Virus record (IMG/VR): IMGVR_UViG_3300005264_000097
Coordinates: 1-46,169 of that record
DNA from: a virus
DNA length: 46,169 nucleotides
Strand: one strand, 5' to 3'
The notes under the pieces were generated by a model. It did no database searches. It had not been told where the DNA came from and worked only from the letters and a program-made list of their open reading frames with translations. The translations under genes and the position numbers were made by a program. This document shows positions 6,706 through 40,108 of this stretch, piece after piece. Position 1 is the stretch's first letter, and every line of letters begins with the position of its first letter.

Positions 6706-9600
6706 TTACATTAAATAATTACGTTCAATTTCTTGGTGTACTTGTATTACTTCACTATGTGAAGTCAATGTACATTCTAATTTAATCCATTTAAAATTTA
6801 AATTATGCAATATTATATAGATATCTAAATCTTCTGTATAATTATATTCATATTGCATTATAGTACCAACTAAAGATTCAGTTCCTATAAGTTCGTCTCT
6901 ATCTAATGTATATATTCTTACTTCAGTTCCAGGTTGTATATGTGTTAGTGTTAGAGTTCTTAATGTTACTAATACTACATTGTTTTCTGTAGTTGTCGGA
7001 TTAGAAGCTTCTTTAGCACGAACTGTAGCTTGATATTCTGTGTAATCATTACTTAGGTCTATAACATTATTGATGAATACTGAAGTTTCTAATGTTGTTT
7101 CTGTATCAAACGTTGAACTAAATGTAATAGCTTTATTGTTATCTTTAAATATTCCATTAGTTATAATACTATCTGCTACAGATATATTTAAACGGCTATT
7201 AGTAAATACATTATTAGAATTAACTCCATCTATAATATCTATTTTATTAGTATTTTTAAATTCAGTATTATTAATATTAATACTATCCATAAATCCTAAT
7301 ATATTATTATACTTATTAAAGTTACATCCATATAGACTTACTATACTTTGATTTTCTATAATAAAGTTACTTCTATTTATTATTGGCCCGTATATTGAAT
7401 TATAACTATTAGAAAGCATATATAAACCATTAGATCCTTTATTATTATTTAATTCTCCAAATATTACTATACTTGGATGGCTATTTGATTGTATTATAAT
7501 ATTATGATGATCTTGTAATACATTTGGTTCCATTGAAGATACTATAACACCATCTTTACCTGTGATTTGTATACCTTTTTCATCTGTAGTATTATTTCCT
7601 AAAATCATAGTACCAGTAAGAGTAAATATACCATTTTCTTTTGTAAATATACCCCATCCTTCTTCTTGATCTTTCTGTGCTATCGTATCAAGAGTTATTG
7701 GTGCATCTGATACTACATTATATGATGAACCTAATGTCAAACAATCTATCCATAAACTATCCATAGAATTCATCGTGTTCACATCTGTAATTATTTGAAT
7801 TTTATTAATATTACTAAAATCAATAGAATCTCCTTCATCTTGTTGATTCCATCTATTTAATTGTAATAATTTCCATCCACCTTTATAAGTATCAAATCCT
7901 TCTACATAATACGTTCTATAATCATTATTAGAATCTATAAATTTTAATTGAACGCCACCTTCCATCTTATTTTTTAGTACTATAGGAAAAGCAAAATTGA
8001 ACCAGCATCTGAATGTATCTACATTTGTATTAATAGATAAATCTAAATTAAAAAATTCAACTGTCTTAGTTCTCTCTAAACGTTCATCTATATCATATGC
8101 AAGACAATTATTACCATACTTATTAAAGCCTTCTTTAACAACTAAAGATTCTCCAGGACCTTTAACATTAGCACCATTTTCACAATCATGAATAATATAA
8201 GGTGTATTTTCAAACCATGATTCATTTGTATTGTTTGTTACTGATTTAATATAATATATGTGTGATATTCTTTGAGATAATGAAGTATCTCTAGTATATG
8301 CATACACTTTAATTATAATATCTTGAGGAATACCATTAATAGTCATATTTGGATCTGACTGATATCCTGAATTATATATTACTGAATTGTCTAAATATTT
8401 TAAAATAATCTTGTATTCTAATGTATCACCATCAGGATCTGTTCCTTCTATATTAAATACTAAATTAATATCAGTTATAATTAAAGGATTAGTTTGACTT
8501 TGTGATATCTCACTTCCATTATAATTAACTATAGGGATGTCTGGTATTGTATTAAATATTATAGTATTTAAAGTACCTGTATTATTATTATCATTATATG
8601 CTATAAGGAAATTACCATTTCCTTTATCTACTATCTTGGGATCATAAAAAATACCAGTATCAAGATTTTCAACTGATTCTACAGATACATCCATATCATC
8701 TATATTTAATATACTATATGCACCTTTATACCCAAAGTCAGAAGAGCAATATGCTACTATTGCTTTATTTTCATCTATAGGTAATACATCATTAAAATAA
8801 CACCATCCAGAATTAAATATAGTATCATTCCCTACATTTATTTCTGTATAATCTTGATTAGTGCTTATTACATTTGTTACTCCATTATAGTCTCTATCAG
8901 AGTATACAACAATAAATTTATTTATTGATAATTTTTTGAATGAAGTCCAACTATGAATTCTATCTTTTATCATTGATGAGCTAACAATTGATAGATTATC
9001 GTTCTCTATATTAACTATAGATAAACTTAATTTATCTCCACCAGGAGTGTGTGCATATAATACAGCTATATGATTATTATCTATAGTTAATGAATAAGAA
9101 TATTCAATTTTTTCATATATAAGATATATACTATTTATATAATATATTGTATTATCTTCATTTATTCCTAATAATTTAGATCTTGCCCTTTCATGATCTT
9201 TGTATGAAACTAATATTCTGTTATAACTATTTACAGCGATACTAATTCTTTCACTTCTATCAGATGCAAAATTGAATATAGGATTTATTTCAAGAATATC
9301 ATTATAAAGTATATTAACTATTACAATATATCCATTATCATGATTACCAAAAGCAATTATTATTTTAGTACTAGATATTTTTTTTATATCTATATCTTCA
9401 TGCTCTGGTTTAATATTAGAAATTACTGTTTCAGTTCCTTGTATTACTTCTCCATCTATATCTATAACACATCCAGTTAATTTATCTCCATTTCCTTTAT
9501 CTTTATATACTATAACAGATCTACTATTAGATATTTCAATGGCTTCTAAATATTCTGCTCTAGCATCGTTAAATACAAAATCATTTCCTATCTCTGCCAT
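6706..9600 (-). CDS. Large tail fibre: propeller, Ig-like and beta-helix-like parts
   Basis: 964 residues. Residues about 1-350 contain seven degenerate repeats of 'hydrophobic-x-hydrophobic-V-x-Y-x-D' type (RSVIVYKDKG, KIIIAFGNHD, RILVSYKDH, HIAVLYAH, KFIVVYSDRD, KAIVAYCSSD, NFLIAYNDN). These are spaced like the blades of the propeller genes at 20085, 28805 and 38831, so a diverged seven-bladed propeller is likely. An Ig/FN3-like segment follows (NTIPDIPIVNYNGSEISQ ... EYKIILKYLDNSV), then a jelly-roll-like part with an Asp/Trp-rich core. A beta-helix-like region rich in Asn, Ser and Ile (about 680-850) follows, then a C-terminal strand domain. It is probably a receptor-binding or glycan-contacting fibre. 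It lies downstream of two fibre genes on the same strand, with a terminator between. Confidence 0.75.
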   Translation of the reverse strand: MAEIGNDFVFNDARAEYLEAIEISNSRSVIVYKDKGNGDKLTGCVIDIDGEVIQGTETVISNIKPEHEDIDIKKISSTKIIIAFGNHDNGYIVIVNILYNDILEINPIFNFASDRSERISIAVNSYNRILVSYKDHERARSKLLGINEDNTIYYINSIYLIYEKIEYSYSLTIDNNHIAVLYAHTPGGDKLSLSIVNIENDNLSIVSSSMIKDRIHSWTSFKKLSINKFIVVYSDRDYNGVTNVISTNQDYTEINVGNDTIFNSGWCYFNDVLPIDENKAIVAYCSSDFGYKGAYSILNIDDMDVSVESVENLDTGIFYDPKIVDKGNGNFLIAYNDNNNTGTLNTIIFNTIPDIPIVNYNGSEISQSQTNPLIITDINLVFNIEGTDPDGDTLEYKIILKYLDNSVIYNSGYQSDPNMTINGIPQDIIIKVYAYTRDTSLSQRISHIYYIKSVTNNTNESWFENTPYIIHDCENGANVKGPGESLVVKEGFNKYGNNCLAYDIDERLERTKTVEFFNLDLSINTNVDTFRCWFNFAFPIVLKNKMEGGVQLKFIDSNNDYRTYYVEGFDTYKGGWKLLQLNRWNQQDEGDSIDFSNINKIQIITDVNTMNSMDSLWIDCLTLGSSYNVVSDAPITLDTIAQKDQEEGWGIFTKENGIFTLTGTMILGNNTTDEKGIQITGKDGVIVSSMEPNVLQDHHNIIIQSNSHPSIVIFGELNNNKGSNGLYMLSNSYNSIYGPIINRSNFIIENQSIVSLYGCNFNKYNNILGFMDSININNTEFKNTNKIDIIDGVNSNNVFTNSRLNISVADSIITNGIFKDNNKAITFSSTFDTETTLETSVFINNVIDLSNDYTEYQATVRAKEASNPTTTENNVVLVTLRTLTLTHIQPGTEVRIYTLDRDELIGTESLVGTIMQYEYNYTEDLDIYIILHNLNFKWIKLECTLTSHSEVIQVHQEIERNYLM

Positions 9601-15155: not shown

Positions 15156-16250
15156 ATGGCTATTTATTCAAAAAATACACATGTTTTAGAAAACGTTCAA
15201 ACACCAGAACCTACTGAAGGTTATGTTGGAGAAAATGGGTTTGCTAGAATTATGATTGACAATGTTCAAAATGAACATGCATTATTTGAAGCACTAATTA
15301 TGAATGATTTTGAAGAGGTTGCATTGGGTGAATCTGCAACTATGGAACAATTACAACCTATCTATGAAGCAAGCATTGGTGGTTTCTTTGCTAAGATTAT
15401 AGAATTCTTAAAGAAAATTTGGGCTAAGATTGTTAACTTATTTAAAGTTTTCAAAGAAAAACTTATTCAATTATTTACTAAAGATTATGCTGCATATGTT
15501 AAGAAAACTAAACAAGCAGTTATTGCTAAGGATTTAACTAAATTTAAATTTAAAGCAAGAATGGGTAAATCTGGAACATTTGCTGTAGGTGGTGTAAAAT
15601 TTGCTGAGCCTAGTTTACAATCAGAAGATGTTCTTAGTATGTTTAACGAAAAAACAACTACTGATGATTTAGATAAAGCAATTTCAAGTCTTGATGAAGA
15701 TTTTAAATTAAAAGTATATAATGAAATGCATGGGTTAGATTCTAGTGAAATATCTGATATACCTAAAGATTTTATTGATAAATATTTTGAAGATGAAGAA
15801 GAAATTGAAGGATTAAAAAGTGAGCAATTAAATAGTATCTTATCTGTATTAACTGAGTATAAATCAATAATTAAAGATTTAGAAACTTCAGAAGGAAAAG
15901 TTAATAAACAATTTAAAAAAGAAACATCTGCTTTAGCTAAATTATCTAAGAAATATGCTGATATGCAACCTAAAGGTGGAACAGATGGAGATAAAAAAAT
16001 AACTGCAGAGCAAGCTGCTGTATCTTCTAAAATTGTTAGCTATACACAAAAATTATCAGGAATTAATTCAGCAGCATATACTGAATTTTCTAAGAATGTT
16101 ATGACTCTTACAAAATTATCAGTTAGTGAATCTTGGAAAGTATACAAAAAAGCAGTTACATTTAATCCTAAAGCAGTTAAAGAATCAACAGTATTATTTA
16201 ATGCTATTGATGAATCTGTTGATTATGAAATGGAATTAGCATTCGAATAA
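15156..16250 (+). CDS. Putative processed inner (ejected) protein, paralogue 1
   Basis: 364 residues. First of four tandem proteins with one plan: an acidic N-terminal segment, then I-x-E and a small residue (here I69-Y70-E71, then AS), then a strongly amphipathic aromatic/Lys helix (FFAKIIEFLKKIWAKIVNLF, continuing to about 108), then a long helical body. I-x-E is the cleavage consensus of the T4 gp21 prohead protease, and a related protease is encoded at 21854. Removal of the first 71 residues during head maturation would expose the helix. The N-terminus MAIY is shared with the proteins at 16308 and 25105 and may be a head-targeting tag. I infer an encapsidated protein that may insert into membranes on ejection. 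No database family is recognised. Confidence 0.72.
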   Translation: MAIYSKNTHVLENVQTPEPTEGYVGENGFARIMIDNVQNEHALFEALIMNDFEEVALGESATMEQLQPIYEASIGGFFAKIIEFLKKIWAKIVNLFKVFKEKLIQLFTKDYAAYVKKTKQAVIAKDLTKFKFKARMGKSGTFAVGGVKFAEPSLQSEDVLSMFNEKTTTDDLDKAISSLDEDFKLKVYNEMHGLDSSEISDIPKDFIDKYFEDEEEIEGLKSEQLNSILSVLTEYKSIIKDLETSEGKVNKQFKKETSALAKLSKKYADMQPKGGTDGDKKITAEQAAVSSKIVSYTQKLSGINSAAYTEFSKNVMTLTKLSVSESWKVYKKAVTFNPKAVKESTVLFNAIDESVDYEMELAFE

Positions 16251-16307: not shown

Positions 16308-17372
16308 ATGGCTATTTATAATACAAGAGTTATTAGTGAAAGTTCTAATCTTGACAATATAGATGTAGAAGCAAGTAAATATGATGCTAACTTAGCAGGA
16401 GCTTCTATGTTAGTATATGAGAATGAATTAAATTATGCTAACATGATGAAAGCAGTTGGCATTAATGAATTAAATTACTTAATTGAGAATGGAACAGAAA
16501 TGATTTATGAAGGTGGAAACTTAAAAAGCTTCTTTGCAAAAGTTAAAGCATTCTTCGTAAAAATATATGAAAAAGTTAAAGGTTTATTCAAGAAGTTTAT
16601 TGCTACTATGGATAAATTTGTTTTATCTAATAAAGATTTTGTTAAGAAATATAGAGAAGCATTAACTAAAGTTAATACTACTGATTTTGAGTATAAGGGA
16701 TATGAGTATACTATTAATGCATTTAGTGTTGCTACTTCTTATGCTATAATGAAAGATCAAGATAAACATAGCAAATTCCCAGTAAATACTGCAACTGATG
16801 TAAAAGTTCTTACAGCTGAAAAAGATAGATTAACTGAAAATAAAGAAGACATTCAAGATTTATTAAGAGGTGCTTGTTTTAAAGGTGCTAAAAATAATAA
16901 CAATAAAGTTGATGCTACTGACTTTGATAAAGAGTTAAAAGCAATGTTTAGAAATGGTGAAGAATCACCTGAGATTATCGATAAAGTTGAAGTTACTGCA
17001 TTATTGAAAACTATTGATAGTTATAAAGACGTTAAGAAAGCTGCTGAAAAAGATTTATCTGATACTAAAAAGATTATCGATGCTATCATTAAAGATCTTA
17101 CTAAGCAAGAAAAAGATTTATCTTCTAAAATTCCTAAAGGAACTGAAGCTACTAATCTATTAAATGCTGCTTATGTATCATTATACAGCAAGTATCACCA
17201 ATTAAACAAAGATATGTTAGGATTCTTAACTAGAGCTAACGGTGCTAAGTTAGGTGCTATGAAATCAGACTTATCACAAGCTAAATCAGTATGTGTTAAA
17301 TTACTTTCATACAAACCTAAAAATGAAGCTGCTACTTTAGAGAGCGGATCTTTAGATGTTAATTTTATTTAA
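16308..17372 (+). CDS. Putative processed inner (ejected) protein, paralogue 2
   Basis: 354 residues. Same plan as its neighbour at 15156: MAIY start, acidic leader, I66-Y67-E68 then GG, and an amphipathic helix (SFFAKVKAFFVKIYEKVKGL, then FKKFIATMDKFVLSNKDFVKKY). The helical body has a short strand motif, FEYKGYEYTINAFSV. The gene at 17431 has a matching motif, FEWDGYEFTIFDNVP, which strengthens the paralogy. It contains 'FRNGEES', paralleled by 'FRDGEDS' in 17431. It is flanked by terminators on both sides. Function inferred as for paralogue 1: a head-internal protein cut by the prohead protease. The sequence of the bodies is otherwise poorly conserved between members. Confidence 0.72.
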   Translation: MAIYNTRVISESSNLDNIDVEASKYDANLAGASMLVYENELNYANMMKAVGINELNYLIENGTEMIYEGGNLKSFFAKVKAFFVKIYEKVKGLFKKFIATMDKFVLSNKDFVKKYREALTKVNTTDFEYKGYEYTINAFSVATSYAIMKDQDKHSKFPVNTATDVKVLTAEKDRLTENKEDIQDLLRGACFKGAKNNNNKVDATDFDKELKAMFRNGEESPEIIDKVEVTALLKTIDSYKDVKKAAEKDLSDTKKIIDAIIKDLTKQEKDLSSKIPKGTEATNLLNAAYVSLYSKYHQLNKDMLGFLTRANGAKLGAMKSDLSQAKSVCVKLLSYKPKNEAATLESGSLDVNFI

Positions 17373-17430: not shown

Positions 17431-18471
17431 ATGTTTAATATTAATACAATAATGAATGAAGCTTCTGTTGATTATGGCTATCAGAAATATGAAGAAAACT
17501 ATACATTAGAAATGATGAATTATATTATAGAATATAAAAAAGAATACAATAATGCGATTAAAGATTTATATTCAAATGTAATTAATGAATCTAATGTAGA
17601 AATAATACATGAATCATTTGAAAGTTTTATTAATAAAGTTAAAGAAATTATTAAAAAGTTTATAGCATTTATAAAAAGTTTATTTAATAGATTTATTACA
17701 TTATTAATGGGAATGGTTAAATCTGATAAATACTTAAAAAGTAATAAAGATAAATTAATGAAATTTGAAAATAAACACGAATTTGAATGGGATGGTTATG
17801 AGTTTACTATATTTGATAATGTACCTTTAGTTCATCTTGCTGAAATGGAATTTAGAAAAGATTTCTTCGATTTTGATGTTCCAGCAAAAGATATAGAAGT
17901 ATTATATGATGAATTTAAAAATACTTTATATGATGGATTTTATGATAAATTTAGAGCTACTGTAATTGGTAAAGATGGTGAATATATAGATGATGCAAAT
18001 TTCACAGGAGAATTATTTACACTATTTAGAGATGGTGAAGATTCTAGAAATAAATTCACTGTAGATAAAAACTATATAAGTAATGCTTATGATAATTATA
18101 AAAATTATAAAGATATTGAAAAGTCTATAAATAGAACTAAAACAGATATAGAAACTAATTATAGAAATATAGAGAGATATTTAGATAAAATGTATAAAGT
18201 TGTTTCAAAAGGTTCTGATAATCCTATATCTATTTTAGTTAAGGATTATGATAGTGGAAATGAAACACATGCTGTATTGACAAATAAACAAAAGATAATC
18301 TTTGATGAATTTATTAAAGCTAAATCTAATCAAGTCATAGGTATGTCTACTATACATGGTATTGCATTTAGTTCTAAATTAGATGCTATTAAAGATAGAT
18401 ATGATCAAGATAAAAGTATTATGTATAAAGCACTATTTAAAATCGATGGATATGCTAAGGAGGCGAAATAA
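17431..18471 (+). CDS. Putative processed inner (ejected) protein, paralogue 3
   Basis: 346 residues. Third member of the cluster. The leader carries several candidate cleavage sites (IMNEAS at 8-12, VINES at 50-54, and I59-H60-E61 then SF aligned with the other members). The amphipathic helix follows as FINKVKEIIKKFIAFIKSLF, then a hydrophobic extension, ITLLMGMV. The shared strand motif FEWDGYEFTIFDNVP and 'LFTLFRDGEDS' tie it to 16308. The N-terminus differs (MFNINTIMNEAS). It abuts the next gene with no gap: its stop is directly followed by the ATG at 18472, whose ribosome site (aaggagg) lies inside this gene. That suggests coupled translation. Confidence 0.72.
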   Translation: MFNINTIMNEASVDYGYQKYEENYTLEMMNYIIEYKKEYNNAIKDLYSNVINESNVEIIHESFESFINKVKEIIKKFIAFIKSLFNRFITLLMGMVKSDKYLKSNKDKLMKFENKHEFEWDGYEFTIFDNVPLVHLAEMEFRKDFFDFDVPAKDIEVLYDEFKNTLYDGFYDKFRATVIGKDGEYIDDANFTGELFTLFRDGEDSRNKFTVDKNYISNAYDNYKNYKDIEKSINRTKTDIETNYRNIERYLDKMYKVVSKGSDNPISILVKDYDSGNETHAVLTNKQKIIFDEFIKAKSNQVIGMSTIHGIAFSSKLDAIKDRYDQDKSIMYKALFKIDGYAKEAK

Positions 18472-20084: not shown

Positions 20085-21377
20085 ATGGCTAGAGGAAATG
20101 TGTACGGACAAAGTAGTGGAGGTCTTAAAGTAAATGATGTAGAGAAGACAACAGCAGTAATAAAAATAGGAAGTGTAGTAAGTGAAGGAGATCTTATTAG
20201 TTATGATGGTAGTGAAGTAACAAAAAGAGGTATTGGTAATAATATAAATAGTGGTAATGAATTTGTATTCACTAGTAGTAGTACTGTTTATATAAGTGCA
20301 GTATCTTTAACAAGTACTAAAGTTCTTGTTAGTTATAGAGATAATGATAATAATTATTATGGTACTTCTATAGTTCTTAATATAAGTGAAGATATAATAA
20401 CTAGTGGTAGTGCTTATATATTTAATAGTAGTGATACTGGTTTTATAAGTGCAGTATCTTTAACAAGTACTAAAGTTCTTGTTAGTTATCAAGATGGTGG
20501 TAATAGTCAATATGGTACTGCTATAGTTCTTAATATAAATGGTATTAATATAACTAAAGGTAGTGAATTTGTATTTAATAGTGGTGCTGATTATATAAAT
20601 GCTGTATCTTTAACAGATACTAAAGTACTTATTAGTTATAGAGATTATGGTAATAATTTTTATTGTACTTCTATAGTACTTAATATAAGTGGAAATATTA
20701 TAAGTAAAGGTAGCCCTTATGTATTTAGTAATAGTACTAATACTGAATATATAAGTGCTACTTCTTTAACAGATACTAAAGTTCTTGTTAGTTATAATGA
20801 TAGTAGTAATAGTTATTATGGTACTTCTATAGTACTTAATATAAGTGGTACTAATATAACTAAAGGTAGTCCTTATGTATTTAATAATATTGGTAGTACT
20901 TATTATATAAGTGCAGTATCTTTATCAGATACTAAAGTATTTGTTAGTTATCAAAATAAAGGTAATAGTTATTATGGTACTTCTATAGTACTTAATATAA
21001 ATGGTACTAATATAACTGGTGGTAGCCCTTATGTATTTAATAGTGGTAATAGAACTGATTATATAAATGCTATATCTTTATCAGATACTACAGTACTTGT
21101 TAGTTATAAAGATAATAGTTCTTATGGTACTTCTATAGTTCTTAATATAGATGGTAATAATATAAGTAAAGGAAGTGAATATATATTTAATAGTGGTTAT
21201 ACACAATATATAAGTATAGTATCTTTAACAGATACTAAAGTACTTGTTAGTTATCAAGATACTGGTAATAATAGTTATGGTACTTCTATAGTTCTTAATC
21301 TTAATAAGTTAGAGCCAGAAGGTATTGCATTAAAGAGTGGTACTGGTGGAGAAACAATAGACATATATAAATTTTAA
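20085..21377 (+). CDS. Seven-repeat beta-propeller protein, copy 1
   Basis: 430 residues. An N-terminal cap (MARGNVYGQSSGGLKVNDV, then a 'GDLISYDGSEV' element) is followed by seven repeats of about 48-52 residues with the core YISAVSLTDTKVLVSYxD..N.YGTSIVLNI.G..IT.GS.YVFNSG. The C-terminal cap is ALKSGTGGETIDIYKF. Seven WD-like blades predict a closed propeller. Copies 2 (28805) and 3 (38831) share the caps exactly or nearly. Copy 1 alone lacks the promoter block and strong ribosome site: only a weak 'agga' precedes its ATG, 17 bases after the inner-protein stop. It may therefore depend on read-through. It is probably an exposed carbohydrate- or receptor-binding decoration, inferred from fold and context only. 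Confidence 0.75.
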   Translation: MARGNVYGQSSGGLKVNDVEKTTAVIKIGSVVSEGDLISYDGSEVTKRGIGNNINSGNEFVFTSSSTVYISAVSLTSTKVLVSYRDNDNNYYGTSIVLNISEDIITSGSAYIFNSSDTGFISAVSLTSTKVLVSYQDGGNSQYGTAIVLNINGINITKGSEFVFNSGADYINAVSLTDTKVLISYRDYGNNFYCTSIVLNISGNIISKGSPYVFSNSTNTEYISATSLTDTKVLVSYNDSSNSYYGTSIVLNISGTNITKGSPYVFNNIGSTYYISAVSLSDTKVFVSYQNKGNSYYGTSIVLNINGTNITGGSPYVFNSGNRTDYINAISLSDTTVLVSYKDNSSYGTSIVLNIDGNNISKGSEYIFNSGYTQYISIVSLTDTKVLVSYQDTGNNSYGTSIVLNLNKLEPEGIALKSGTGGETIDIYKF

Positions 21378-28804: not shown

Positions 28805-30094
28805 ATGGCTAGAGGAAATGTGTACGGACAAAGTAGTGGAGGTCTTAAAGTAAATGATGTTTTAAAGAAAACAGCAGTAATAAAGAGTGGTAGTATAGTA
28901 AGTGAAGGAGATCTTATTAGTTTTGATGGTAGTGAAGTAATAAAGAGAGGTATAACTAATGATATAAGTAATGGTAATGAATATGTATTTAATAATAGTG
29001 TTATTTCTAATATAAGTGTAACTACTTTAACAAGTACTAAAGTACTTGTTAGCTATATGGATAATGATAATAATAGTAATGGTACTGCTATAGTACTTAA
29101 TATAGATGGTACTAATATAACTAGTGGTAATAAATTTATATTTAATAATGGTAGTACTTCTTATATAAGTGCAACTACTTTAACAAGTACTAAAGTACTT
29201 GTTAGTTATAGAGATACTAATATGTATGGTACTGCTATAGTACTTAATATAAGTGGAAGTACTATAACTAGTGGTAGTGCTTATTTATTTAATAGTTATA
29301 GAACTCATTCTATAAATACTATATCTTTAACAGATACTAAAGTACTTGTTAGTTATAGAGATGAAGGTAATAATGATTATGGTACTTCTATAATTCTTAA
29401 TATAAGTGGTATTAATATAACTAGTGGTAGTGAATATGTATTTAATAATAGTAATTCTTATACTACTGATATAAGTGCAGTAAAATTAACAGATACTAAA
29501 ATACTTGTTAGTTATAAAGATTATGGTAATAGTCAATATGGTACTGCTATAGTACTTAATGTAGATGGTACTAATATAACTAAAGGTAATGCTTATGTAT
29601 TTAATTATGGTAATACTGATAGTATAAGTGCTACTTCTTTAACAAGTACTAAAGTTCTTGTTAGTTATAAAAATAATAATAGTATTGATACTGGTACTGC
29701 TATAGTACTTAATGTAGATGGTAATGATATAACTAAAGGTAGCCCTTATGTATTTAATTATAATGGTAGTACTGATTATATAAGTGCAGTATCTTTATCA
29801 GATAGTAAAGTACTCGTTAGTTATAGTGATAATGGTAATAATAGTTATGGCACTACTATAGTACTTACTATAGATGGTAATGTAATAACTAGTGGTAATG
29901 AATATGTATTTAATAGTGGAAAAACTTATGATATAAATGCAGTATTTTTAACAGATTCTAAAATATTTATTAGTTATATGGATAATAATTTTTATGGTAC
30001 TTCTGTAGTATTAGATGTATCTAAAACAGATATAGAAGGTCTTGCTCTTAAGAGTGGTACTGGTGGAGAAACAATAGATATATATAAATTTTAA
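28805..30094 (+). CDS. Seven-repeat beta-propeller protein, copy 2
   Basis: 429 residues. The N-terminal cap is identical to copy 1 for 19 residues (MARGNVYGQSSGGLKVNDV), then come seven blades (for example NISVTTLTSTKVLVSYMDND; YISATTLTSTKVLVSYRDTN), ending in GLALKSGTGGETIDIYKF. Blades vary mainly in the loops around 'YxD..N..YGT' while the strands are constant, the pattern expected of a scaffold with variable contact loops. It has its own promoter motif and strong ribosome site. It is inserted between the capsid-metallopeptidase module and the polymerase fragment, a place with no functional link, which suggests a movable cassette. Role inferred as a virion surface decoration. Confidence 0.75.
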   Translation: MARGNVYGQSSGGLKVNDVLKKTAVIKSGSIVSEGDLISFDGSEVIKRGITNDISNGNEYVFNNSVISNISVTTLTSTKVLVSYMDNDNNSNGTAIVLNIDGTNITSGNKFIFNNGSTSYISATTLTSTKVLVSYRDTNMYGTAIVLNISGSTITSGSAYLFNSYRTHSINTISLTDTKVLVSYRDEGNNDYGTSIILNISGINITSGSEYVFNNSNSYTTDISAVKLTDTKILVSYKDYGNSQYGTAIVLNVDGTNITKGNAYVFNYGNTDSISATSLTSTKVLVSYKNNNSIDTGTAIVLNVDGNDITKGSPYVFNYNGSTDYISAVSLSDSKVLVSYSDNGNNSYGTTIVLTIDGNVITSGNEYVFNSGKTYDINAVFLTDSKIFISYMDNNFYGTSVVLDVSKTDIEGLALKSGTGGETIDIYKF

Positions 30095-30162: not shown

Positions 30163-31979
30163 ATGATACCAGGATATCCAAAAAGTGCTAACTTGATGTT
30201 ATTAAACACTAATTTCAATACACAATAGAAGAGCCTGAATATGAATTTTATATAGCAAAAGATGATGTAGAAATAACTCATAATTTATTATTTATAGAAG
30301 AAGAAAAAGTAAATAAAGTTAAAGTTAAATTTAGAGATTTATTAAAAGAAATTGCAGTACTAAGTGATAATACAGAATTCTTTTATGATAATATAAAAAG
30401 TAAAAACTTTTATGCTAATAATGTATTATTCACATATAATAGAATATTCAATGCTGATATGGATATTGAAGATAACTTTAGATTAAGATTTTATAAGTAT
30501 TATGGAATGAATATTGATCTTCCTGAGATGGCATTCTTTGATATTGAGGCAGATACTATTGATATGGTAGGAGATTTCCCAGAGCCTGGTGAATGTCCAG
30601 TAAATGCTATTACTTATATAGATAATAATACTAAACAAGTGTATACATTACTATTACATAATGATAGTAATCCACAAATAAAAAAACTAGAACAAGAAAT
30701 AAAAACTCCAGAGGGATATAAAAAATTTATTGAAGACATTAATACAAATTTATTAAAATCTTGTCAAAATAATACTAAGCAATTTAGAAGATTAGAACTT
30801 GATAAATTAGAATATTCAATTAAATTTTATGATGAAGAAATAGATTTATTAGTTGAGTTTTTTAATATAGTAAATGGATTAAAACCTGATATATTATTAG
30901 CTTGGAATATGGCATTTGATTTACCATACTTAATAGAAAGACTTAGAACTATTGGATATGATCCTAGAGAAATAATACCACATCCAGATTATGATACAAA
31001 TGAAGCATATTATTATATTGATGAAAGAATGGCTAATATTCCTGAAGAGAAAGGTGATTTTGCTAAGATAAGTTCATATACTGTATTTATGGATCAACTT
31101 ATTCATTTTGCATCAAGACGTAAAGGACAATCTAAATTAAAAAGTATGAAATTAGATTATATTGGTTATGTCACTGCTAAATTACAGAAATTAGATTATT
31201 CTCATATTACTAGAGATATAGCACAATTACCATATAAAGATTATAGAATTTTTGCAATATATAATATCATAGATACTGTAGTACAGATGGCAATAGAATT
31301 TAAGACTGGTGATATAAATTATATATTTAATAAAGCTCAATTGAATATAACAAGATATCATAAAGCTCATCGTCAAACTATTTATATACCAAATAGAATG
31401 ATTTTAGAATTTTCAGATAATGGACTTATTGCAGGAAATAATGTAAATAAATTTAAGAGTAGACCAACAGAAAAATTTCCTGGAGCTTTAGTAGGTAATC
31501 CTTTAAATATTGAACAAGATAACTTAGTAAAAACTCCATTAAATACATTCATTAGAATAGCTGAAAATGTAATAGATTTTGACTTTAAAGCTCTATACCC
31601 TAGTATCATGGAAGAAAATAATATTGCACCAAATTCTGAGATTGGTAAAATAACAATTAAGGATAAACCATTTAAAGAAGTTAATCCTTTTGGAAATACT
31701 AGATTTAATGATGGCGGATTATTCTTAGAAGATTATAGTTCTGATAATATAATAGAATTTACTCGTAGATGGTTTCAACTACCAGATGTATTAGAAATGA
31801 TAAATAGTATAGATAAATATTTTGATGAGAATGAACCATTATATGACCATAAAGGATATGATCCGATTACAGGATTAGTTAGACCATTTAGAGTTAGAAC
31901 ATCTGAACTATTTAAACCATTTAGCATAGATGACTTTATTCATAAACCATTTAGTATACAAGAAAGTATGCCAAAATAA
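30163..31979 (+). CDS. Family B DNA polymerase, N-terminal part only, with one frame shift
   Basis: A ribosome site and ATG at 30163 begin MIPGYPKSANLMLLNTNF. That frame stops at 30228, but another frame (from about 30213) continues without a start as YTIEEPEYEFYIAKDDVEIT and so on into the long frame whose first ATG is 30459. One missing T near 30213 would rejoin them. Numbering from 30459: 3'-5' exonuclease motifs I (FFDIEAD, Asp28/Glu30), II (AWNMAFDLPYL, Asn150/Asp154) and III (YNIIDT, Tyr268/Asp272), then polymerase motif A (FDFKALYPSIM, Asp375). The frame ends about 130 residues after motif A. Motif B (K..xN..YG) and motif C (DTD) are absent from it and from the rest of the window. So this is a split polymerase whose second half is elsewhere, or a truncated remnant. 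Confidence 0.75.
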
Positions 31980-31992
31980 AAGGAGATATTAA

Positions 31993-32625
31993 ATGATTAA
32001 AACAGAACTTAAAAAATTTTATGAAATAATAAAAATATGTAAAACTGGAATGATAATGTTTAAAGATAATATATCTATATTATTAGATGGCAATCAAGGC
32101 TCTGTCACTATTATAGAATATAATCCTTTTACAGCATATACTACAGATACTTTAATATTTGACACATTACAATTACAGGAATTTCGTAAAGCTAAGTTTA
32201 AAGAACTGAATATCAAACAACACCAATATGGTATATCTATAATGGATATTGATAGCACTATAATTGTGAATAATACGGATTTTAATAATACTAATTTATC
32301 GTATAAACATGAGTATATTTTAAAAAATAATCTTATATTAATTTGTAATACACATGATACATTACATCATGAAAATAATCTATTTGATATTCCAGAGTTT
32401 GTAGAAATGATGAAATTAAAATCTTCTAATAGTAGTACGTTTATTAAATTAGGTAATAAATATTATATGAATTTATATCCTAGAATATTACCAATTCTTA
32501 AATCGGATAAATCTGTTAGTGTTGATATAAAATATGAAAATCCTAGTGTATTTATAAGTATTATGACTATAGAAAAGAAATTATTCAATGTAAAATTGTA
32601 TATGCGATTTTTATACAATGTATAG
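31993..32625 (+). CDS. Unknown protein after the polymerase part
   Basis: 210 residues, starting 13 bases after the polymerase stop with 'aaggag'. It is strand-rich, with repeated alternating hydrophobic patterns (FKDNISILLDGNQGSVTIIE; NLILICNTHDTL; SVDIKYENPSVFISIMTIEK). Length and a two-domain strand pattern resemble a sliding clamp (T4 gp45 is about 228 residues), and the location next to a polymerase fits. However, I see no diagnostic motif, so this is only a suggestion. It could instead be an unrelated structural protein. Confidence 0.55.
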   Translation: MIKTELKKFYEIIKICKTGMIMFKDNISILLDGNQGSVTIIEYNPFTAYTTDTLIFDTLQLQEFRKAKFKELNIKQHQYGISIMDIDSTIIVNNTDFNNTNLSYKHEYILKNNLILICNTHDTLHHENNLFDIPEFVEMMKLKSSNSSTFIKLGNKYYMNLYPRILPILKSDKSVSVDIKYENPSVFISIMTIEKKLFNVKLYMRFLYNV

Positions 32626-32691: not shown

Positions 32692-34812
32692 ATGGCACGA
32701 AAATCAAAAAAGAATGATGAAAAAAAGTTTGATAATGCAAAATCTATAGGTATTGCACAAAATATAAATAATTTAATATCTGATTTATATAGAAAAACAT
32801 ATTATACTAATACTGATGCTAAAGATGCTTTAGAAAATATAAAGATGAATTCAGATAAAGCTATAGATAAATTAATTAATAAATCTATAGATATAAATGG
32901 TGCAAATATGTCTAAATTGTATAGCAGATTAGAAGTAAAAAAAAAGTTAGAAGATAAGAAAACTCGTGATGCATTTGAAACTATGTTTGAAGATGAACAT
33001 AACATGGATGGATTATTAAGCACTTATATAAATAATAAATATCTAAAAGAGTTAGACTCGGAAATAGATGTTATATGTAAATATATGCCTCAACTAGAAG
33101 ATGTATTAACAATAAAAAGAGATAATATTTTATCTTCAGATACATTATCATCAGATTTTATTAATGCTAAAAGTATAACAACTATAGGAAATCAAAATCA
33201 ATTTAAATTAAATATTGATACTATAAAAAGTACATATAAGCTAGTAGAGTTATTTGAAAAAGCTTATATGAATATAAGTAAATATGGCGAAGAATTTATT
33301 TACGTAGTTCCATATAATAAAGCAATTGCTAAAGAATATGATAAAAAAAATTCTTTAAATATATCTGAGATGACATTAGAGCCAGATGCAGATATTATAA
33401 ATGAATCAACTGAAGAAATGGTATCATTTAAAGTTAAATTCGATAAAAGCACTGCAGTTGAATCACTAATTAAAGAATCTTTATATTTACATGAAAAAGG
33501 TTCTAGTATTATAGATTCAGATAAATTAGATATAGATAGTTTCTCATCTTCTAATGATGGTATAATTGATAATAAAGAAGATAAAACAAAAATAGATATT
33601 ACTGGATGTATAGTAAAAAGAGTTCCAAGAGAAAATATAATTCCATTATATATTGATAATATATGTATTGGATATTATTATGTAGAATCAGAACAAGATA
33701 ATTTGTTTGATGCTATTCAGCGACAATCCAATCCATTAGCAGGTATAAAAAGAAATGGTGGATTAATGAATCAGCAAAATCAAAAAGATATTAAAAAATC
33801 ATTATTAAAAAATCTATCTAAAAAATTATCAGAACAGATAGATAAAAAATTTATTAATGCTAATCAAGATTTAAGTAAAGAAATATATATGATACTTAAA
33901 CATAGTAACTTTAAGAAAGAAAGCCAAATTCGTATATCATTTATTCCTCCAAATGAAATGTTTCATTTATACTTTGATAAAGATGAAAAAACTAATAGAG
34001 GACAATCTGATTTATTAAAATCATTAATTCCAGCAAAACTTTATTCTGCATTGTATATATCAAGTTCTATAGGGATTTTAACAAGATCACAAGATAAACG
34101 AGCATATTTTGTTAAACAAGCTGTAGATAAGAATATTAGTAAAAATCTTATTAATACAATAAATCAAATTAAGAAAGCTAATTTTGGTATGAGAGAAGTA
34201 GAAAATCTTAATAATATATTAGGTATTACTGGTAGATATAATGATTATGTTATTCCTACATCTAATGGTGGAGAACGTCCTATAGAATTTGAAATTGTAT
34301 CTGGACAAGATATAGATACGAATGATGATTTTATGGAAAAACTAGAATTAATGGCAACTAAACCTTTAGGTGTTCCATATGAATTAATAGATTCTATGCA
34401 CCAAGTAGACTATGCATCAAGATTAAAAACTTCAAATATTAGATTTGCTAAACATGTATCTACACGTCAATCAAGACTACAAGTAATGTTTGGTCAAGTA
34501 TTGACAGCAATATATAATTATCAATTTAATGATAATGAATTAATCACAATTGTATTGCCTCCACCTTCTCATTTAAACATACAAAATATAAATGAGTTAT
34601 GGGATACTACGGAAGATTTAGTTTCTAAAATGGTTGAAATGGAATTAACAGATAAAGATAGAGAAGATGCAAATATTGAATATATATTTAAAAAAAATCT
34701 AATTAGATATTATTTATCAACGTATATAGATTGGAATCATTTAGATACTATCAAGCGTAATTCTAAATTAGAATCTAAATTGCTTCAAGACAATGAAGAT
34801 GAAGGATATTAA
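32692..34812 (+). CDS. Portal protein
   Basis: 706 residues. It would form the dodecameric ring at the head vertex through which DNA is packaged. Large-phage portal features seen: a helical N-terminal wing; a central strand region with EEFIYVVPYNKAI; the crown/stem core (RISFIPPNEMFHLYFDKDEK, then GQSDLLKSLIPAKLYSALYI); a tunnel-loop-like region; and the conserved ending DFMEKLELMATKPLGVPYEL-I-DSM, then ASRLKTSNIRFAKHVSTRQS. This is the arrangement of T4 gp20-like portals. An acidic linker (about 230-300) carries 'NESTEE'. It is followed by a terminator and the SbcC-like gene. The ribosome site is aaaaagggag. Confidence 0.85.
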   Translation: MARKSKKNDEKKFDNAKSIGIAQNINNLISDLYRKTYYTNTDAKDALENIKMNSDKAIDKLINKSIDINGANMSKLYSRLEVKKKLEDKKTRDAFETMFEDEHNMDGLLSTYINNKYLKELDSEIDVICKYMPQLEDVLTIKRDNILSSDTLSSDFINAKSITTIGNQNQFKLNIDTIKSTYKLVELFEKAYMNISKYGEEFIYVVPYNKAIAKEYDKKNSLNISEMTLEPDADIINESTEEMVSFKVKFDKSTAVESLIKESLYLHEKGSSIIDSDKLDIDSFSSSNDGIIDNKEDKTKIDITGCIVKRVPRENIIPLYIDNICIGYYYVESEQDNLFDAIQRQSNPLAGIKRNGGLMNQQNQKDIKKSLLKNLSKKLSEQIDKKFINANQDLSKEIYMILKHSNFKKESQIRISFIPPNEMFHLYFDKDEKTNRGQSDLLKSLIPAKLYSALYISSSIGILTRSQDKRAYFVKQAVDKNISKNLINTINQIKKANFGMREVENLNNILGITGRYNDYVIPTSNGGERPIEFEIVSGQDIDTNDDFMEKLELMATKPLGVPYELIDSMHQVDYASRLKTSNIRFAKHVSTRQSRLQVMFGQVLTAIYNYQFNDNELITIVLPPPSHLNIQNINELWDTTEDLVSKMVEMELTDKDREDANIEYIFKKNLIRYYLSTYIDWNHLDTIKRNSKLESKLLQDNEDEGY

Positions 34813-34898: not shown

Positions 34899-37622
34899 AT
34901 GAAATTTTTATATTTAGAATTAAAAAACTATATTGGAATATATAATGGAATGAATAAAGATATAATAAAAATTGATTTTAGTAAAGCTCAAAGTAATAAA
35001 ATAATTATAAGGGGATTAAATGGCAGTGGAAAATCAACAATAATGAATTCATTATCACCATTGCCTGAGAGTAATGAGAATTTTATAAATAATAGAGAAG
35101 CAAGTAAAAAAATAACTTTATCACATAATAAAATAATATACAATATTAAAATACTTCATGAGATTACTAGTAATGGTGATAGAAAAACTACTAAAGCATA
35201 TATACAAAAAACTTTAGATGATACTATGATAGAATTAAATCCATCTGGAAATATAACTCCGTATAAAGAGGTATTATATAATGAATTTGGATTAGACTCT
35301 AATTTTGAAGCTCTTAGTCGTCTCAGTACAGATGATAGAGGTATAGCTGATAAATCGCCATCGGAAAGAAAGAAATTTGTTAATAGTATATTATCTGAAC
35401 TAGAGTCTTATAATAATATACACAAAACTATATCTAAGAGAGCCAGTATATTTAAATCAATGGTTAATAGATTAGAAACTAAAATTGATCGTATTGGTAA
35501 TCCAGAAAAATTAGAGTCTTCATATAAATCGATTGAAAATAGATTAGCTGTTATGGAACAAGATAAAATAAATTTAACTTCTAAATTAAGTAATATAATG
35601 GCAGAAATTAATATACTAGATCCAAATGGTCAAATACAATCTTCTTTTAATGTAATTTCACAATCATTAAAGAGTATAAATAATGAATTAAAAATAAAGA
35701 ATGAAGAATTAAAATCTATTATGATTAATGTAGATAAAAAAGAATTTACTAGAAATGAATTAATAGAAGATATTAAATCTTTAGATCATATGATATTAGA
35801 ATTAAAATTAAAAATAACTAATACTGAAACGAAAATAAATCAAAGTCTTTTAGATAGAGAAGATTACGCTAAACAACTCCAATACAAATCCTCTAAATTA
35901 AATTCATTAACAAATAAATATGATTATGAAGAATCTATAACTAAATTAAAATCATTACGAAAAACATTAAATGAATGGAATAAGATACTTGTAGAAATAG
36001 GGTTTAATAAAGATGAAGTTAATTTATCTAAAGAAGAATATCTATTAGGAATGGATACTTTAAATCAAATTAAAGATACAGTTTCAGCATTTAAAGCTTC
36101 GGGAGATTATAAGATAATAAATGAAGTTATTAATAACTTTATTATACCAAACGTTAAACCAAATATAGATATTATTATGAATAATATAGAAAATATTAAT
36201 AATAAATTATTAGATATTAAAGATGAAATAAATGAGCAAAATAGAAAAATAGTACTTATGAGCACATTAAAAGATAGACCACAGTTATGTACAATAGATA
36301 ACTGTAAATTCATTAAAAATGCAATAGCCATATCCCACACTAAGCCTGTGGAAGAGTTACAGAGATTAGAAAAAGTAAATGCTTCTCTTATTACTGAATT
36401 AGATAAGAATAAATATGAAAAAGAGAGAATGATAGAAATATTATCTGCATATAATGATTTAAATAATATTTTAAGATTATTATATGCTAATCGTAATATT
36501 TTAAATAAACTTCCACATATGGAAAGTTTTCTTAATAAAGAAGTTTTTTTAAATAGAATTCTAAATAATGATGAGTTTAATGATATAGACCATTTACAAA
36601 AATATGTTGAATACTGTGATATTTTTGCTATGTATAATATATATAAATCTCAAGTAAATAAATTATCTACAGACATTAATATTTATAAATCAAATAATAG
36701 CATAATAAAAGAATTTAATAAAGATATAAATTCTTTAAAATCTAAAATAGATAATATTGATAATACCAGTGATACTTTAAGAAATAATTTATTAACTCTT
36801 AATGATAATATGACTAATGCACAATATAAATTTGATTTGTATAATAAGATATCTATTATTTTAAATGATATACATGAATTAGAAAATAATCGTAATGATC
36901 AATTTAATAGATATAAAGATATAGAAAATGCTATAAATGCAATTAATGAATTACACAAATCTAAAGAAATATTTCAATCTAAATTAAATGATATATCTAG
37001 ATCTATTGGTCCAATAAAAAATGATAGAGATCAAATTCAGTTTAATCTAAAACAATTAGAAGAATATTATGTAGAATATGAAGAATTTAAAGCTAAGTAT
37101 AATAAAATTAAAGAAATTAAATACCACTCATCTTCAACTACAGGAATTCAATTAATCTTTATAAAATTATATATGGGTAATATGATTAATTTAGCAAATA
37201 AATTATTATCATTATTATTTGATGGTGAATTTTATTTAGAACCATTTATAATCAATAGTAAAGAATTTAGAATACCATGTAGAGGACAAGGTATATTGAA
37301 TGATGATATATCATCTATGTCTACTGGACAAATATCATTAATATCTATGGTATTAAGCTTTGTTATGTTGAAACAATCATCAACAGATTATAATATACTT
37401 AAACTTGATGAGATAGATGCAGGGTTAGATAGTATGAATAGAGTGTTATTTTTAAATTTATTAGATAAACAAATGGAGCTATTAGATGTAGAGCAATGTA
37501 TAATGATATCGCATAACCCAGAATTAGATATTAATGGATGTGATATGATATTATTAAAAATGGATGAAAGTGAGAAGGCTCATGTACTTGCTTCTGACAC
37601 TAATATAATTTTCAACTACTAA
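34899..37622 (+). CDS. SbcC/Rad50-like recombination ATPase (T4 gp46-like)
   Basis: 907 residues. It would be the ATPase subunit of an SbcCD/gp46-gp47 nuclease for DNA end processing and recombination-dependent replication. Features in order: Walker A GLNGSGKST (Lys45), two long coiled-coil arms (about 170-450 and 490-770), a central break with CTIDNC, ABC signature SSMSTGQISLISMVLSFVML, Walker B LKLDEIDAGLD and switch His in MISHNPEL. The central Cys pair is C-x4-C rather than the C-x2-C zinc hook. No partner nuclease (SbcD/gp47) is in the window. A helicase-type or structural SMC-like role is less likely given the length. It sits among virion genes rather than replication genes. Confidence 0.85.
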   Translation: MKFLYLELKNYIGIYNGMNKDIIKIDFSKAQSNKIIIRGLNGSGKSTIMNSLSPLPESNENFINNREASKKITLSHNKIIYNIKILHEITSNGDRKTTKAYIQKTLDDTMIELNPSGNITPYKEVLYNEFGLDSNFEALSRLSTDDRGIADKSPSERKKFVNSILSELESYNNIHKTISKRASIFKSMVNRLETKIDRIGNPEKLESSYKSIENRLAVMEQDKINLTSKLSNIMAEINILDPNGQIQSSFNVISQSLKSINNELKIKNEELKSIMINVDKKEFTRNELIEDIKSLDHMILELKLKITNTETKINQSLLDREDYAKQLQYKSSKLNSLTNKYDYEESITKLKSLRKTLNEWNKILVEIGFNKDEVNLSKEEYLLGMDTLNQIKDTVSAFKASGDYKIINEVINNFIIPNVKPNIDIIMNNIENINNKLLDIKDEINEQNRKIVLMSTLKDRPQLCTIDNCKFIKNAIAISHTKPVEELQRLEKVNASLITELDKNKYEKERMIEILSAYNDLNNILRLLYANRNILNKLPHMESFLNKEVFLNRILNNDEFNDIDHLQKYVEYCDIFAMYNIYKSQVNKLSTDINIYKSNNSIIKEFNKDINSLKSKIDNIDNTSDTLRNNLLTLNDNMTNAQYKFDLYNKISIILNDIHELENNRNDQFNRYKDIENAINAINELHKSKEIFQSKLNDISRSIGPIKNDRDQIQFNLKQLEEYYVEYEEFKAKYNKIKEIKYHSSSTTGIQLIFIKLYMGNMINLANKLLSLLFDGEFYLEPFIINSKEFRIPCRGQGILNDDISSMSTGQISLISMVLSFVMLKQSSTDYNILKLDEIDAGLDSMNRVLFLNLLDKQMELLDVEQCIMISHNPELDINGCDMILLKMDESEKAHVLASDTNIIFNY

Positions 37623-38830: not shown

Positions 38831-40108
38831 TTAAAATTTATATATGTCTATTGTTTCTCCACCAGTACCACTCTTAAGAGCAAGACCTTCTATATCTGTT
38901 TTAGTAAAATCTAGTACTATAGAAGTACCATCACCATTATAACAGCTAACAAGTACTTTAGTATCTGATAAAGATACTGCACTTATATAAGAAGTACTAC
39001 TACTATTAAATACATACTCACTACCACTAGTTATAGTATTACCATCTATAGTAAGTACTATAGAAGTACCATAATCATTATTACTATCATCTCTATAACT
39101 AACAAGAACTTTAGTACTTGTTAAAGATATAGCACTTATATAAGTAGTATCACCACTATTAAATACAAACTCATTACCTTTAGATATAGTACTTCCAGAT
39201 ATATTAAGAACTATAGCAGTGCCTTTATTACCATTACCTTGATCTCTATAACTAACTAATACTTTAGTATCTGTTAAAGATACGGTACTCGTAAAAGCAG
39301 TATTATTATTAAATATATAAGCACTACCTTTACTTATAGTATTACCACTTATATTAAGTACTATAGCAGTACCATAATAACTATTACTAGCATCTTGATA
39401 ACTAACAAGCACTTTAGTACTTGTTAAAGAAGTAGCACTTATATAAGAAGTATTACCACTATTGAATACATAAGGGCTACCACTAGTTATAGTAGTACCA
39501 TCTATATTAAGAACTATAGCAGTACCATAAGAGCTATTATTATAATCTTGATAACTTATAAGAACTTTATTAGTATCTAATAAAATAGGAGTTATATTAC
39601 CAGTATTACCACCACTATTAAATACATATTCACTACCACCAGTTATAGTATTTCCAGATATATTAAGAACTATAGAAGTACCATAAGAACTATTACTATA
39701 ATCTTTATAACTAACAAGTACTTTATTATTATCTATTAATAAAGAATTTGTATCTATAGTAGTACCACTATTAAATATATATTCACTACCACTAGTTATA
39801 TTAGTACCATCTATATTAAGAACTATAGCTTTACCATAACTACCATCTCTATAACTAACAAGTACTTTAGTATCTGATAAAGATACTGCACTTATATAAA
39901 TAGGAGTACCACTATTAAATACATATTCACTACCACTAGTTATATCATTACCAATACTTCTCTTTATTACTTCAGTACCATCATAAGATATAAGATCTCC
40001 TCTACTTATATTATTACCACTCTTTATTACTGCTGTAGTTAATAATGCATCATTCACTACACCACTAGAACCTCCACTACCTTGACCATATACTGTTGCT
40101 TTCTTCAT
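38831..40108 (-). CDS. Seven-repeat beta-propeller protein, copy 3
   Basis: 425 residues. The N-terminal cap differs (MKKATVYGQGSGGSSGVVND) but keeps the YGQ...GG tag and the GDLISYDGTEVIKR element. Seven blades follow, two of them more diverged (TNSLLIDNNKVLVSYKDYSN; ITPILLDTNKVLISYQDYNN). The C-terminal cap is identical to copy 2 (GLALKSGTGGETIDIYKF). It has the promoter block of copy 2 (inverted) and a strong ribosome site. It stands at the head of a - strand unit with the protein at 37801. A decayed relative lies immediately upstream at 40213. Role as for the other copies: a likely surface-exposed binding protein. Confidence 0.75.
   Translation of the reverse strand: MKKATVYGQGSGGSSGVVNDALLTTAVIKSGNNISRGDLISYDGTEVIKRSIGNDITSGSEYVFNSGTPIYISAVSLSDTKVLVSYRDGSYGKAIVLNIDGTNITSGSEYIFNSGTTIDTNSLLIDNNKVLVSYKDYSNSSYGTSIVLNISGNTITGGSEYVFNSGGNTGNITPILLDTNKVLISYQDYNNSSYGTAIVLNIDGTTITSGSPYVFNSGNTSYISATSLTSTKVLVSYQDASNSYYGTAIVLNISGNTISKGSAYIFNNNTAFTSTVSLTDTKVLVSYRDQGNGNKGTAIVLNISGSTISKGNEFVFNSGDTTYISAISLTSTKVLVSYRDDSNNDYGTSIVLTIDGNTITSGSEYVFNSSSTSYISAVSLSDTKVLVSCYNGDGTSIVLDFTKTDIEGLALKSGTGGETIDIYKF

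Follow-up and report, generated by a model that had tools for sequence, protein, structure and literature searches.

The family B DNA polymerase gene that ends at position 31979 of IMG/VR record IMGVR_UViG_3300005264_000097 is very probably (we put the probability at roughly 0.9) the N-terminal subunit of a replicative polymerase made of two polypeptides, with the gene of the partner off the contig and the active site built in trans. By the window we mean the whole stretch of DNA that was analysed, the 46,169 nucleotides of that record. The evidence lies in the motifs of the gene, its homology, an end point conserved among its homologues, the separate partner gene found in relatives and the complementary coverage of T4 and RB69 gp43 by the two halves. 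Judged from its sequence, the gene is a new, divergent metagenomic member of the known N-terminal subunits of split family B polymerases found in AR9/phiKZ-type jumbo phages.

Motifs, end point and neighbourhood of the gene

Direct reading of the open frame that ends at 31979 gave the three exonuclease motifs and polymerase motif A, followed by the stop codon (Table 1), as the first-pass annotation had reported. The exonuclease domain of the window protein was also recognised by Pfam (PF03104, E 4e-9). The catalytic aspartate of motif A, a role that we assume by analogy with RB69 gp43, is expected at 31581-31583, and the stop codon of this N-terminal half (N-half) lies 131 residues past it. 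The same annotation held that the gene ends short of motifs B and C, which nothing in the window supplies. This was borne out, as AR9 g152, a protein carrying the missing part, had no match within the 46 kb of the window; since the window is a fragment, this absence is uninformative as to the partner.

Table 1. Features of the polymerase N-half and its surroundings, in positions of the window
Feature	Position	Strand	Remark
AAAGGAG, resembling a Shine-Dalgarno sequence, before the original start codon	30147..30153	+	direct reading
True start of the N-half (MIPGYPKSANLMLLNT...), in another frame than the remainder	30163..30228	+	matches MKDLIPGYPAGSELILLDT of L011
Lesion junction	30210..30225	+	N-terminal domain shorter by about 24-34 codons than in the aligned relatives, frame lost
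PolB N-half open frame (N-terminal domain, 3'-5' exonuclease, first palm strand)	30213..31979	+	583 codons from 30228
Exo I, DIE	30540..30548	+	invariant in alignment A4
Exo II, N...D (NMAFD)	30906..30920	+	N227 and D231 invariant in alignment A4
Exo III, Y...D (YNIID)	31260..31274	+	Y345 and D349 invariant in alignment A4
Polymerase motif A, DFDFKALYPSIM	31575..31610	+	D450, D452, Y457, P458 and I460 invariant in 19/19 rows
C-terminal extension, about 47 residues	31836..31976	+	from the alignment; modelled with low confidence
Small gene between N-half and portal	31993..32625	+	29% identical to its positional counterpart in L011
Portal / virion structural protein	32692..34812	+	phrog_3004; same neighbour in AR9, MarsHill and L011

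We then compared the window protein with its family. PHROG 3011 ('DNA polymerase', 576 profile positions) was matched at positions 53-566 (E 2e-41), meaning that the window protein is not C-terminally truncated relative to the family; the remaining positions 1-52 coincide with the broken start of the gene. A tblastn search of 50,697 phage records returned 444 with a match to the window protein, the best covered being those of the Staphylococcus phages S6, MarsHill and DC4, the Bacillus phages AR9, PBS1, Goe21 and BpSp and the Yersinia phage phiR1-37 (26-32% identity). The homologues of four of these phages, AR9 g132 (554 aa), MarsHill_138, phiR1-37 g170 and BpSp gp206, align through the core end of the window protein and have their end point at the same alignment position. 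The nearest IMG/VR loci found were L011 (52% identical; the 58-kb contig IMGVR_UViG_3300033508_000200), L014 (46%), L012 (44%) and L013 (44%), and among the rows aligned the C-terminal extension is common only to the window, L011, L012 and L013, AR9 being without it. With the window protein alone as query, the scan of viral contigs gave no relative, whereas the scan with an alignment did find relatives. The scan of genome contigs gave 45 distant PolB matches, 21-26% identical apart from three short stretches at 38-44%, and none of them was near enough to check the frame break described below.

A break after motif A near virion genes had been called unusual; it proved to be the normal state in the AR9-type group, where the N-half adjoins the portal gene. 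Indeed, the arrangement of one or a few small genes followed by the portal gene is alike in the window, L011, MarsHill and AR9. An SbcC-like gene (34899-37622, +) lies downstream of the portal gene in the window but precedes the polymerase half in AR9, MarsHill and L011, and this differing position indicates that gene order has been shuffled.

Two further groups of genes were seen in the window. Three paralogous genes of about 430 aa (20085-21377, +; 28805-30094, +; 38831-40108, -), with protein identities of 61-66% and DNA identities of about 78-81%, are scattered among the virion genes; they are built of tandem repeats of about 51 residues (about 153 bases) with a putative propeller-like look, and a 964-aa gene (6706-9600, -) is a distant relative of them. 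Three adjoining genes (15156-16250, 16308-17372 and 17431-18471, +) encode proteins of 346-364 aa that are mutually about 29% identical and had no PHROG match.

The partner half and the place of the split

In phiR1-37, motif B (ILANSYYG) and motif C (SDTDS) are carried by g167, relatives of which were found in 22 phage records, mostly of the same phages as the N-half. Its AR9 counterpart is g152, annotated as 'DNA-polymerase catalytic subunit'. Using AR9 g152 as query, we searched 20 records, namely the window and 19 of the 80 N-half loci, taken from the best 25 after removal of duplicates, of the AR9 and phiR1-37 records and of a few others. A separate partner gene was present in 17 of the 20 records and in all ten of those of at least 200 kb, the three misses being the window (46 kb), a 21-kb fragment and a 41-kb fragment. 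In the partner frames listed, regular expressions detected motif B and/or motif C, and motif A in none. In some records (G003, G004, G008, G015 and G018) the partner is fragmented into two or three frames. On the contig of L011, the partner (L103) is a protein of 694 aa encoded about 14.5 kb from the N-half, with a motif C that reads DTDS and, according to the alignment, a variant motif B (DANGTYGAIG).

From L011, a partner about 14.5 kb downstream, and so just beyond the right end of the window, could be predicted. We dropped this prediction because gene order differs: the sheath genes and SbcC are placed differently in the window and in L011. Since the partner is absent from the window, its existence in this phage rests on the relatives, from which we infer it.

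Profile comparisons located the split. The N-half profile (19 sequences) covers residues 3-434 of T4 gp43 (9e5y) and 93-434 of RB69 gp43, and the partner profile (9 sequences) covers residues 453-602 of T4 gp43 and 704-769 of the RB69 protein. The coverage of 3-434 by one profile and 453-602 by the other makes the two halves complementary, with the break between about residues 434 and 453, a position that we take to be past the motif A strand and ahead of the fingers. An AlphaFold model of the window protein, built from 16 sequences and with a mean pLDDT of 75, superposed on RB69 gp43 over residues 1-402 (Z 23.0, rmsd 4.1, 329 aligned), and its half-palm (403-480) was of low confidence at residues 403-419 and 428-480. 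The partner model was poor (9 sequences, mean pLDDT 64); a Foldseek search of the PDB yielded nothing for it at E 0.001 or better, and RB69 gp43 was only among the weak top matches. Either the shallow alignments or the missing second chain could be the cause of the low model confidence.

We propose that the window subunit would provide the first strand of the palm, which carries motif A, along with the N-terminal domain and the proofreading exonuclease, and that the partner subunit, encoded outside the 46-kb contig, would provide the remaining palm, the fingers with motif B, motif C and the thumb. The two subunits would fold together and their physical assembly would create the active site in trans, with one catalytic aspartate coming from motif A of the window subunit and the other from motif C (DTDS) of the partner.

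Family B polymerases encoded by two genes include the T4-like gp43A/gp43B and the archaeal MthPolB. In Pseudomonas phage MIJ3, PolB also occupies two genes, and the split is tied to an intein (PMC6892783, in part). The closest known system is that of AR9 (gp132 and gp152) and PBS1. As in the window, its N-half has the exonuclease and motif A and is located near the portal gene and SbcC. The AR9 partner with motifs B and C is in a separate gene about 15 kb away; in contrast to the window, with which its N-half is 31% identical, the AR9 protein has an intact N-terminus. The AR9 split is published, the relevant part of the paper giving gp132 as 'exonuclease and partial catalytic domain' and gp152 as 'catalytic subunit' (mBio 2017), in agreement with the AR9 annotation, and for DC4 an excerpt likewise has one gene for a 'DNA-polymerase catalytic subunit' and another for a 'DNA polymerase' (PMC10638138). 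The split PolB is not mentioned in the excerpts of four other papers (PMC7544198, PMC8460666, PMC7909554 and PMC10299810). L011, with the partner on its contig, resembles the window in the N-half, the C-terminal extension and the small gene and portal gene downstream, and differs from it in having an intact N-terminus and SbcC upstream rather than downstream. The phiR1-37 system (g170, g167 and g164) has the same break after motif A and differs in that its catalytic half is itself split, the thumb being a separate third gene, g164, whereas in AR9 it lies within the catalytic subunit. In the g164-g167 region (L005:3817-6140) the catalytic half is cut before the thumb, and this polymerase would consist of three polypeptides.

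The frame break near the start

The reading frame that begins at the original start codon (ATG, 30163) runs into a TAG stop at 30226-30228, and the polymerase frame opens only at 30213, after a TAA at 30210-30212; no ATG, GTG or TTG start occurs in the polymerase frame before 30459. We aligned 19 N-halves, excluding intron-bearing or broken frames, duplicates and ambiguous starts, and measured the spacing from the conserved T of 'LLNT', or its alignment column, to the P conserved in 'EEPEYEFY'. This spacing was 32-42 residues in 18 of 18 relatives and about 8 in the window, where FQYTIEEPEYEFY comes almost directly after LLNT and out of frame. The earlier claim that the N-terminus is in a different frame, with a join near 30213, was therefore right as to the frame and needed refinement as to the join, which is not a simple one of 1-2 bases since about 24-34 codons are missing. 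The sequence as written would not yield a full N-terminal domain, and the lesion may inactivate this one copy of the gene.

The loss at 30210-30225 of about 24-34 codons and of the frame would be a local event separate from the split. With seven other genes matching those of L011 and the polymerase frame otherwise open, the damage is confined to this spot and, if genuine, of recent date. Either the genome has lately undergone a deletion here or the sequence contains a sequencing or assembly error. We consider the chances evenly balanced that the break is such an error and that the real gene is intact like that of L011, which is compatible with a split subunit. The seven genes common to the window and L011 match over most or all of their length (256 of 330 residues for the weakest), and the remaining polymerase frame is intact, a condition that a long-dead gene would not keep; however, about 70-100 bases are missing rather than a single homopolymer base, and around the junction there is no repeat of at least 14 bases on which an assembly could collapse, only one 12-base match.

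The first-pass annotation had offered two layouts, one with the polymerase divided over two genes and its palm/thumb half encoded elsewhere, the other a dead copy. The first was upheld, and the second is not supported for the C-terminal truncation because the homologues end alike and their genomes have the partner separately. A remnant in decay, cut short at its C-terminus and out of frame at its N-terminus while a full-length polymerase works elsewhere, would explain the broken N-terminal frame and the loss of residues kept in 18 of 18 relatives. We nevertheless regard it as quite improbable: the gene ends at its C-terminus where the whole family does, its open frame of 583 codons retains every exonuclease and motif A residue, and no fused polymerase was found among the N-half frames read in relatives. 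Least probable of all is a join of the two frames by programmed frameshifting or by splicing of an intron or intein. An N-half gene in a relative does contain a group I intron (PhiPA3, at motif A, Rfam 72 bits) and that of Madawaska, labelled 'DNA polymerase exonuclease subunit', is annotated as two exons. In the window, however, residues are missing rather than added, so that splicing could not restore the N-terminal domain, no intron is detected by Rfam, and the overlap ACT AAT TTC AAT lacks an X XXY YYZ slip site. Nor does an intron account for the end of the gene after motif A, since Rfam finds none in the window and the gene ends where its family naturally does.

The split in phiKZ-type phages

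We also looked at the more distant phiKZ-type phages. The N-half profile matches PhiPA3 gp085 (E 4e-25), which ends at 'HVADLD', the start of motif A; the group I intron follows, and the frame beyond it reads '...STYPNVSQILNIARETTVMEF...'. In three of the five phiKZ-type phages read, motif A is within the same CDS: phiKZ082 (DLDIVSTYPN), SPFM21 (DADLTQAYPS) and N1M2 (DIDVTGAYPH). The exonuclease CDS of Goslar ends at 'VAD' with an HNH/NUMOD gene directly next to it, and the remainder of its motif A was not found within 1.2 kb after the exonuclease gene. The other half was read in PhiPA3 gp047, which has a motif B-like NNNSYSG and the motif C SDTDS and no motif A; the PhiPA3 annotation gives gp047 as similar to phiKZ gp050, motifs B and C having been read in the PhiPA3 protein only. 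When profiles were compared with hhalign, the N-half profile matched phiKZ082 (98.4%, E 4e-15) with motif A aligned, and the partner profile matched PhiPA3 gp047 (99.6%, E 2e-24).

As far as these alignments tell, the phiKZ-type split is the same as that of AR9 and the window, with motif A on the exonuclease polypeptide and motifs B and C on the other; the phiKZ and PhiPA3 halves are very divergent from the window protein, and PhiPA3 differs by its intron at motif A. A split between motifs A and B would put the two catalytic aspartates on two proteins. We lean towards the view that, throughout the phiKZ/AR9 group, the replicative PolB has been split between these motifs ever since a common ancestor.

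In the literature, phiKZ050 and phiKZ082 are both listed as DNA polymerase and were top hits of a knockdown screen with a phage-infection phenotype, according to the part of the article seen (Nature 2025, PMC12571901), which also carries an alternative suggestion for phiKZ082, suppression of the Pf4 prophage. An excerpt of a 2021 review describes phiKZ-group polymerases as being without a fused exonuclease, one being encoded elsewhere, and makes no mention of motif A on that exonuclease (PMC7824862). We found no description of the motif A/B split as such in the excerpts of openly licensed literature, and one may be in print.

Motif A of the N-half gene is a recurrent site of mobile insertions: the group I intron of PhiPA3, an endonuclease-like stretch in L014 and the HNH/NUMOD gene of Goslar (L116:1591-1896, -; L014:11342 onward; L118:2766 onward). 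The L014 N-half is interrupted exactly inside motif A (VDFD / FASLYPS) by a putative endonuclease-like frame, its translation having been read by eye, and Rfam found no intron in this insertion at the gathering threshold. A further group I intron is located elsewhere in L031 (18628-18827).

For the window, these results remove a false alarm, the missing half being the normal build of such polymerases, and they add a deep branch to the split polymerases, 52% identical to the nearest relative found and 31% to AR9. We offer the extension to phiKZ-type phages as a more interesting outcome than the window gene itself, as it raises the general statement that the polymerase active site of phiKZ- and AR9-type phages would come from two polypeptides. 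If this is true, the 'stand-alone exonuclease' of these phages is the first half of their polymerase, whose active site draws its pair of metal-binding aspartates from two genes separated by kilobases. Replication would then require both halves, permitting control via subunit supply. An active site made of two polypeptides may also account for the difficulty of recognising the phiKZ polymerase and for the harm that knockdown of either phiKZ082 or phiKZ050 does to the phage.
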